This document shows positions 3,001 to 56,912 of a stretch of DNA of 64,000 nt, in pieces. Origin of the DNA: Dehalococcoidia bacterium (GTDB lineage Bacteria > Chloroflexota > Dehalococcoidia > Lucifugimonadales > UBA1123); the NCBI GenBank assembly GCA_009838465.1, contig VXRN01000025.1, forward strand, positions 1 to 64,000, read 5' to 3'. A model generated the notes under the pieces. That model was not told the DNA's origin. It did no database searches and saw only the letters and a program-made list of their open reading frames with translations. Position numbers and translations under genes: made by a program. Each line of letters starts with the position of its first letter. Position 1 is the stretch's first letter.

Positions 3001-3093
3001 TTCTTACCACAGACAGCGCCGACTAAACTGGTACGGCATCATGGAGGAACCGGGGCTTTTTCAAAGTTGGCAGACGAACGCGTGGTGAACAAT

Positions 3094-3309
3094 GCGTCAT
3101 ATATATCAGTTTATAATTGCACTGGAAAGTGCTGGGCGCTAACTGGGAGGGTCACAGGGTTGGGCTGGGACGGTTTTTGCCCAGCGTTGTCCAGAGTTTT
3201 CCCAGCGTTGAAGCTACGAAATGATTATTACGTCGTCTGTCGGTCTGTATCATAAATAACGACTTATATATATGTTCTGAATTCATGCCATAATTGTAGC
3301 ATAGAATGA
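3094..3309 (-). repeat. Leader-like intergenic element, copy E1
   Basis: This 216-bp non-coding segment aligns without gaps to 56485-56700; counted by eye, 182 of 216 positions match. Read on the minus strand it begins ATGCTACAATTATGG (a -10-like box). It then passes through CGTAGCTTCAACGCTGGG and a block of CTGGG then CCCAG repeats, and ends ATTATAAAC...ATATATGAC. A 33-codon frame (3152-3253, minus) with no ribosome-binding site is kept open in both copies. The element points at the aminotransferase gene starting at 2862. The rest of 2863-3426 holds only the short R1 repeat. Confidence 0.8.
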
Positions 3310-3426
3310 AGCAGTCGTGTAGTAAAAGATGAAACCAAGAGCGTGTGTCGTTGCGTGTGAGAATGGGGGCGCATATAATCGCGTTCACCAACGGGACAGC
3401 GGATATGCAGGGGGATAAAGGGCGCT

Positions 3427-21701: not shown

Positions 21702-21779
21702 TCCTGAGACATGGAACTTTACCCGTATCTCCCTAGGGTCAGTTGTTTCTCATTAGACTACACGTTCACGTCCTGAATC

Positions 21780-22018
21780 CGCTATAATACGAACATGTAA
21801 GCTGTCGTGGAGCGTGTCCGACTATGATTCTAAACCTCGACATACATAAATACTCAGTTATGCAGGCCCAATATCGGAGGGGAGAAAAATTTCCCCCAAA
21901 GCTAACGCAGGTGATTAACAGGCGAATCTCTGGTGTTCTAATCACCTGTTACCCTCCTGTCGGTCACCAGTTAAGCCACCTGTTGCCGCCTGTGGTTTTA
22001 TAAACCAAAGTATATGAC
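21780..22018 (+). repeat. Leader-like intergenic element, copy E2
   Basis: This 239-bp segment starts CGCTATAATACGAACAT and is matched, inverted, at 43401-43617. It contains the perfect dyad CAGGTGATTA (21908-21917) and TAATCACCTG (21939-21948) around a 21-base loop, then further CCTGT/CACC repeats, and ends TTTATAAACC...TATATGAC. A 47-codon frame (21860-22003) lacks a ribosome-binding site. The element points toward argF, which starts 138 bp after its end. The rest of 21702-22156 has no visible gene. Confidence 0.8.
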
Positions 22019-22156
22019 TGGGTGAATCCGTCTCGCAGAACGTGTTCAGCGCCGACCATGATGAAAAGCCCTGTGATTCCAGGAGAAGATTACTGACAAT
22101 AGACCGCCAATAACTGTAAACTATCAGCTACGCATCGAATATCAAGGCAAGGCGGA

Positions 22157-43400: not shown

Positions 43401-43617
43401 GTCATATATTTTCATTTATAAACCGACAGGCGGGAACTGGTGGGCAGCAGGTGATTAGATCACCTGTTACTGACCTGTTAATCACCTGCGTTAGCTACGG
43501 GGAAACTTTTTCGCCCTTCCGATATTGGGCCAGCATAACTGAGCATTTATGTATGTCTTGGTTCAGAATCATCGTCGGACACGCTCCATAGTTAGTTTGT
43601 ATGTTCGTATTATAGCG
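43401..43617 (-). repeat. Leader-like intergenic element, copy E3
   Basis: On the minus strand this 217-bp segment begins CGCTATAATACGAACAT and closely follows E2 for about 140 bases. It has the perfect dyad CAGGTGATTA (43448-43457) and TAATCACCTG (43479-43488) with a 21-base loop of different sequence from E2, and ends GGTTTATAAATG...ATATATGAC. The small frame of E2 stops after 13 codons here. It points at DUF1800, 123 bp away. The rest of 43284-43842 holds only an R3 copy. Confidence 0.8.
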
Positions 43618-43703
43618 TATGCAGCGCACGAAAAGGCAGTCCTGTGAGAAGCTAATACCATTTCATTCTGATTAGGACATGAGCCTCAGAGGCAGGCAAG
43701 ATA

Positions 43704-43777
43704 GTCCTTCGACAGGCTCAGGACGAACGAGAGATCGAAGACGAGGCGAAAACGAAAGACCCTGCCGTGGGAACACG
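43704..43777 (+). repeat. Dispersed repeat R3, copy 2 (short)
   Basis: GTCCTTCGACAGGCTCAGGA is followed by CGAACGAGAGATCGAAGACG and AGGCGAAAACGAAAGACCCTG. It matches the core of R3 copies at 16382-16519 and 56748-56912. It lies upstream of the importer promoter. Confidence 0.8.
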
Positions 43778-56437: not shown

Positions 56438-56484
56438 TTTTTTCTCACATGTTGCACAGGGCATTTGCAAATTGGTCAGACGAT

Positions 56485-56700
56485 GCGACATATATCATAG
56501 TTTATATTTACACCGGAAAGCACTGGGCGTTAACTGGGAGAGTCACAGGGTTGGGCTGGGACAGTTTTCATCCAGCGTTGCCCAGAGTTTTCCCAGCGTT
56601 GAAGCTACGAAATTGTTCTCTCGCCGTCTGTCGGCCCGCTTCATAAATAAACGTTTATGCTTATGTTCTGAATCCATGCCATAATTGTAGCATAGAATGA
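56485..56700 (-). repeat. Leader-like intergenic element, copy E4
   Basis: This 216-bp segment is the partner of 3094-3309, aligned without gaps. On the minus strand it has ATGCTACAATTATGG, CGTAGCTTCAACGCTGGG, the CTGGG/CCCAG block, and ends ATATAAACTATGATATATG. The 33-codon frame (56543-56644, minus) is kept. It points at the oxidoreductase starting at 56437. Together with an R3 copy it fills the 56438-57000 gap. Confidence 0.8.
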
Positions 56701-56747
56701 GGTATCAGACGAAACCGTGAAAGACTTTGCAAGAGTCCTGCCCCGAG

Positions 56748-56912
56748 CGACAGGGTCATTTCATTATTAAGTGTCACTAGAGTAGTCCGTTCGTGGTGAC
56801 CCTTCGACAAGCTCCCTTCGACGGGCTCAGGACGAACCATGAATGGACGGCCCTTCGACAGGCTCAGGGCGAACGAGAGGTCGAAGACGAAAAGGTCCTG
56901 CCCCAAGCGACG
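56748..56912 (+). repeat. Dispersed repeat R3, copy 3 (long)
   Basis: GGGTCATTTCATTATTAAG starts the copy. CCCTTCGACAAGCTCCCTTC and GGACGGCCCTTCGACAGGCT follow, then CGAACGAGAGGTCGAAGACG. It is inverted relative to 16382-16519 and has an internal duplication of the CTTCGAC module that the other copies lack. Confidence 0.85.

Follow-up and report, generated by a model that had tools for sequence, protein, structure and literature searches.

We identified a dispersed family of miniature transposons (MITEs) in a Dehalococcoidia (Chloroflexota) genome, whose conserved core contains a promoter-like box, a dyad and a helically phased array of short motifs, and whose copies are placed, with a strong strand bias, ahead of genes. 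Four copies occur in the 64,000-nucleotide stretch of DNA analysed here (hereafter the window). More likely than not, the family represents a mobile promoter/operator cassette that travels on an ISAs1-type MITE and has been kept, facing in the sense direction, in front of many genes, nusA, tig, leuS, tyrS and argF among them.

A few cultured pathogens are known to harbour promoter-bearing MITEs. The present family is strand-biased, belongs to an uncultured lineage, is found in two related species and precedes many genes, some of them housekeeping genes; shorter MITEs that share its ends but show no such bias provide a natural control. Bacterial rewiring by mobile promoters becomes testable here from sequence, with the specific prediction that a single DNA-binding protein recognises CWGG at every turn of the helix.

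Copies of the element and their transposon anatomy

The four copies in the window had originally been described as two pairs. Copies 1 and 2 (3094–3309 and 56485–56700) align over 216/216 columns at 84%, or approximately 182/216 as first counted, and the relationship of copies 3 and 4 is likewise borne out (21780–22018 versus 43436–43617, 84% over 181 columns); the remaining part of copy 4, 43401–43435, contains the 3' end common to the copies. The sequence anchors named in the original prediction are common to both pairs and the array agrees column for column, supporting two branches (A and B) of one superfamily. The downstream genes were also confirmed as Aminotran_3, OTCace (argF), DUF1800 and GFO/IDH/MocA oxidoreductase. 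The proposed extent of 216–239 bp is real as a core; the full element is longer. Features of the window copies are as follows.

56457..56740, minus strand: complete branch A element, TIR to TIR, 284 bp (right terminal inverted repeat, TIR, 56457-56474; left TIR 56723-56740)
56485..56700, minus strand: branch A core, copy 2, upstream of the GFO/IDH/MocA oxidoreductase gene; 84% to copy 1 over 216 columns
3094..3309, minus strand: branch A core, copy 1, upstream of the aminotransferase class III gene; left TIR decayed
3051..3068, plus strand: degenerate right-end terminal inverted repeat of copy 1, CGGGGCTTTTTCAAAGTT, 3 mismatches
3317..3322, minus strand: possible -35 of copy 1, CTACAC, 18 bp upstream of the -10
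3293..3298, minus strand: -10-like box of copy 1, TACAAT, nearly invariant in branch A
3251..3268, minus strand: dyad of copy 1, YATAA-N8-TTATR; ATAA/TTAT halves kept in 20/20 branch A copies
3121..3212, minus strand: helically phased CTGG/CCAG array of copy 1, three units one way, then five inverted (>>> then <<<<<)
3097..3114, minus strand: 3' AT-rich box of copy 1, TATAAAC-N-TATATGAC, conserved in both branches
21780..22018, plus strand: branch B core, copy 3, upstream of argF
21758..21763, plus strand: possible -35 of copy 3, CTACAC, conserved in branch B
21783..21788, plus strand: -10-like box of copy 3, TATAAT
21845..21862, plus strand: dyad of copy 3, CATAA-N8-TTATG; CATAA/TTAT near-invariant in 36 branch B copies
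21908..21993, plus strand: helically phased CWGG/CCWG array of copy 3, spacings 11, 11, 15, 11, 11, 12, 10
22054..22073, plus strand: degenerate right terminal repeat of copy 3 (..GATGAAAAGCCCTG), compared with intact copies
43401..43617, minus strand: branch B core, copy 4, upstream of the DUF1800 gene; lacks two array units and has decayed terminal repeats at either end
43609..43614, minus strand: -10-like box of copy 4, TATAAT, as read in the sequence

Two of the window copies are adjoined by REP-like repeats CCTTCGACAGGCTCAGGACGAACG (43700-43740 and 56790-56880), and the sister species has a tandem cluster (G006:C2:613900-615140) whose units of approximately 28-33 bp match this REP-like sequence.

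Together with other copies, the four window copies form a family dispersed through the 3.55 Mb source genome (G000), where about 63 matches were found (32 in branch A and 31 in branch B) with E-values of 1e-49 to 1e-109 that are far above chance; one sister species, G006, has about 40 copies. The source genome is a MAG-like assembly of 75 contigs, the window being contig 33, with 6.4% contamination, and the G000 and G006 copies are partly dependent, as the counts include seven orthologous pairs. Within the GTDB family, only these two genomes were carriers, and a model of the array, searched with strict filters against 392 other genomes of the class, gave no match.

Alignment beyond the core revealed a frame common to both branches, which consists of CAGGGYCTTTKCAAAGTC, the core and GACTTTGMAAAGRCCCTG. 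With up to 2 mismatches, CAGGGYCTTTKCAAAGTC had 39 matches in the source genome versus 0 in reversed-pattern controls; it is present at both ends of intact copies, and within the window three TIR-like sites occur outside the cores versus 0.1 expected. Among the 31 copies with both ends placed, length was 283-446 bp (median 321, mostly 283-350), an intact branch A element being 284 bp. Nine of these 31 copies were flanked by 9-bp target duplications that were at least 7/9 identical, compared with 0-1 in other registers, and most copies are too decayed for a visible duplication. Examples are CTGAGACGA/CTGAGACGA (L017), GTGATAGCT/GTGATAGCT (L226) and GTGAACGAC (L010). A search of the core for transposase sequence found none, and the core is conserved as a module of its own. 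The element, a short multicopy sequence with terminal inverted repeats, a fixed 9-bp duplication and no transposase gene, is thus a MITE.

The vehicle is most likely of the ISAs1 type because of the CAGGGYCTTTKCAAAGTC ends, the 9-bp target duplications and the relatives of the element. CAGGG ends and duplications of 8-10 bp are ISAs1 features: intact ISAs1 elements in other members of the order likewise begin with CAGGG, and the published ISArsp11 has CAGGGCTGATGCAAAGTCG ends and a 10-bp duplication (PMC6305408). In a related member of the order (G028), remnants of an ISAs1 transposase (NF033564) are bounded by nearly the same TIR, at one end in L178 and at both ends in L180 (399 bp). No full-length autonomous ISAs1 with this TIR was detected in G000 or G006; traces consisted of a short NF033564 fragment in the former and partial matches without the TIR in the latter. 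PF01609 transposases of G000 were considered as autonomous partners and rejected, since none was flanked by the TIR.

Other elements, of 121-154 bp, carry the same ends. These short MITEs (L062:1501-1623, L138, L141, L142 and others) hold a TCATTCCCGCGAAGGCGGGAATCCAG hairpin between the terminal repeats, so that one TIR set moves several unrelated cargos. In G006, L225-L229 form a sub-family of 319-321 bp with clean 9-bp duplications, mostly sense-oriented and only distantly similar to the core, which is probably the youngest branch. A likeness to integron attC sites, an idea formed by eye, was dropped once the TIRs and 9-bp duplications were found.

Promoter-like box, dyad and phased array

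From left to right, the core contains a CTACAC block, TAYAAT, the dyad YATAA-N8-TTATR, the array and an AT-rich end (TATAAA..TATATGA). As -10-like box, branch A has TACAAT and branch B has TATAAT. Genome G007, in 1.6 Mb of which nhmmer found no copy with the models of both branches, served as a native reference. Upstream of its genes, TAYAAT occurred 151 times in sense versus 76 times in antisense orientation (p=7e-7, 1.6 Mb), and this enrichment in copy-free DNA makes both -10 variants of the element native-like. TAYAAT is the native -10 hexamer of the genus, and the earlier claim that the element bears a promoter gains support from this match, promoter activity itself being predicted. The CTACAC block is also present in branch B and in a long form of branch A; CTACAC was not enriched upstream of native genes in G007. 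The right-end TATAAA and TATATGA were tried as alternative -10 boxes and rejected, as neither was sense-enriched upstream of native G007 genes.

The array is composed of three CWGG units followed by three to five inverted CCWG units in nearly all of the 56 aligned cores. Neighbouring units are 10-12 bp apart, and 15-16 bp separate the two blocks in both branches. In branch B, vector strength reached 0.97-0.98 near a period of 11, and most length changes and indels were whole 11-bp units. Such phasing and whole-unit indels are as expected of a protein bound to one face of the DNA. Many copies keep the core motifs although their TIRs have decayed to chance level.

Orientation, placement and competing explanations

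Genes were called with our own codon-usage caller trained on the window, rather than with a published one. With the element read 5' to 3', neighbouring genes in G000 were ++ in 15 cases, -- in 3, -+ in 27, +- in 1 and ?+ in 6; the corresponding numbers in G006 were 11, 2, 21, 0 and 6. Overall, 86/92 copies were aimed at a downstream gene start (48/52 in G000 and 38/40 in G006). In same-strand contexts, sense copies outnumbered antisense copies 26 to 5 (p=2e-4, G000 and G006 together). Sites between convergent genes held 1/80 copies versus 9-11 expected from G007 intergenic DNA, and versus 6/17 for the 121-154 bp MITEs with the same TIRs (Fisher p=8e-5). The distance to the start codon clusters at approximately 110-220 bp. 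That every copy points toward a gene had been claimed from the window, where 3 of the 4 copies sit between divergent genes; either orientation fits such sites, so these four are uninformative, and it is the genome-wide set that establishes the orientation bias. Many copies exist and their orientation is not random, which argues against an ordinary dispersed repeat, and this genome-wide bias favours another of the original proposals, a mobile element selected for its placement.

As in mobile promoters, sense-oriented copies lie upstream of unrelated genes. The downstream genes are mixed and include argF, leuS, tyrS, nusA, tig, DAHP synthase, selD, ubiE/menG, a sulfatase, several DUF1800 genes and, at L004, an elongation factor G-like (fusA-like) gene. 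No common function was obvious among them when 20 of the proteins were scanned and the rest inspected by eye. The idea of a functional regulon was rejected on the same material, in which only DUF1800 genes recur. DUF1800/DUF1501 genes were the commonest downstream family seen (L012, L024, L038, L041, L043, L193 and L222).

Comparison of the two carrier species revealed species-specific presence at two loci and different elements at others. The orthologous regions upstream of argF and of the oxidoreductase gene in G006 are without the element and, in the case of argF, the gene-proximal sequence is conserved to near the insertion point. In the stretch read from G007, the orthologous intergenic regions also lack the element. 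The insertion of copy 4 ahead of the DUF1800 gene is also present in G006 (L193). Sulfatase orthologues have a branch A copy in G000 (L008) versus a branch B copy in G006 (L197), at different insertion points and in the same orientation, and nusA orthologues have a branch B copy (L037) versus a member of the 319-bp sub-family (L229), again in the same orientation. At three pairs (L053/L204, L038/L193 and L049/L199), the insertion is apparently common to both species and the array has changed; in L049/L199 and L053/L204, the 5' part and array differ and the flanks match. These few examples read as if an element were retained at a gene while the element itself turns over.

Under the cassette model, the element would be a non-autonomous MITE that a transposase of the ISAs1 family has spread through the genome. 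Its ends would enclose a one-way control region, with a sigma-70-type promoter at the left (TAYAAT, perhaps with CTACAC as -35), YATAA-N8-TTATR acting as a dyad operator, and 7-8 CWGG half-sites arrayed along one helix face, three one way and four or five inverted, an array probably bound by an oligomerising DNA-binding protein. Copies would be retained almost exclusively at sites from which they read into a gene, whose transcription they may now provide or modulate. Counting against this reading, a promoter at the left box would transcribe the array, which is unusual for an activator array. A broader possibility, which we raise tentatively, is a genus-specific network in which one promoter and a phased operator array for a single oligomeric regulator have been spread by the MITE to dozens of genes (nusA, tig, leuS, tyrS and fusA-like among them), with sub-families replacing one another at the same genes.

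The main rival to the cassette model is purging. The element could be an ordinary selfish MITE whose genic, convergent and antisense insertions were harmful, via its promoter or hairpins, and whose survivors are useless to the host. The MITE anatomy, the decayed ends and the restriction to two species of one genus are all consistent with this, and an outward promoter would itself render antisense insertions harmful. However, short MITEs with the same ends tolerate convergent sites (6 of 17), start-codon distances cluster, and core motifs outlast TIR decay in many copies. The short-MITE control argues against purging at convergent sites, although not fully at antisense ones, and we regard a purely selfish element as rather unlikely.

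The original prediction also offered a structured leader RNA. In favour of a riboswitch-like or RNA-thermometer 5' leader, spread by transposition and acting after transcription start at the left box, the inverted CWGG units can pair, folding of individual copies gave z values of -1.2 to -3.6, and in branch A one pair of a TATAAA/TTTATA stem does co-vary, in 4 copies. However, different copies choose different pairings, RNAalifold gave no consensus for 36 branch B copies, and pairs changed on both sides in branch A were not above slid controls. Rfam yielded no family over the window at gathering scores; at E up to 5 there was none for branch A and, beside branch B, one chance match to mir-14 (E=4). 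Moreover, losing 11-bp units leaves the phasing on the DNA intact, whereas a nested stem in RNA would be disrupted. Such a leader is therefore improbable. A free-standing small RNA gene, also suggested at first, is unlikely as well, since alignments inspected by eye had no conserved terminator-like 3' end and the copies are placed with respect to the gene that follows.

Two candidate leader peptides were rejected: a 25-codon branch B frame from a near-invariant ATG (MILNLDIHKY..), open in nearly all copies, and a 44-codon branch A frame, open in most copies, whose third positions in the array are frozen. These frames had no codon-position or synonymous bias (synonymous fraction 0.275 versus 0.253 for shuffled columns, sd 0.051).

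Finally, the array could be a nucleoprotein, recombination or DNA-architecture site (excisionase- or IHF-like) that aids transposition, the gene-start bias arising because insertion is targeted to promoter-proximal sites. The entire 283-350 bp unit does move, and RdfS exemplifies winged-helix excisionases that work on DNA in oligomeric form (PMC11963761). However, near-promoter targeting alone gives no sense bias (26 versus 5) and the bias is absent from the short MITEs that share the TIRs, so this explanation is very improbable.

Comparison with known mobile promoters and operators

As functional precedents, Correia elements and BrickBuilt are the closest known systems. Correia elements (NEMIS) of Neisseria are small TIR-bearing MITEs with many intergenic copies, mostly immediately upstream of genes, that have sigma-70-like promoters and, in some cases, an IHF site (PMC10969869). 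Both they and the present element are small, gene-upstream MITEs with TIRs and promoter-type boxes, and we liken the two by function only. Their ends and internal sequence presumably differ from those described here, and we know of no phased CWGG array in Correia elements.

BrickBuilt of Porphyromonas gingivalis is MITE-like and strictly intergenic, has promoter activity in lacZ fusions and has been discussed as a putative mobile promoter; its trapped internal short repeat grows and shrinks by whole units (PMC4596501). The present element is similarly MITE-like, with internal units gained or lost whole and predicted promoter activity. It differs in that BrickBuilt has 23-nt direct repeats, bidirectional promoters and an unrelated host, whereas the blocks here are inverted half-sites at 11 bp. 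Putative mobile promoters in general (Matus-Garcia et al. 2012), as summarised in PMC4596501, are similar upstream regions ahead of unrelated genes in one genome; relative to that summary, the present case has a named vehicle (an ISAs1-type MITE), two diverged branches and a defined internal architecture.

ISAs1 insertion sequences and their deletion derivatives resemble the present element in the CAGGG ends, as in ISArsp11, and in short target duplications (10 bp in ISArsp11 and 9 bp here); the present element differs in having a conserved core in which no transposase sequence was detected. With regard to the array, BldC-type operators are a precedent: their short repeats, which vary in number, are occupied by an oligomer that assembles cooperatively, head to tail (PMC5859096). 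Here, in contrast, there are two facing blocks and a CWGG motif, and the bound protein is putative. What is new in the present family is the phased array, together with a same-TIR control without the bias.
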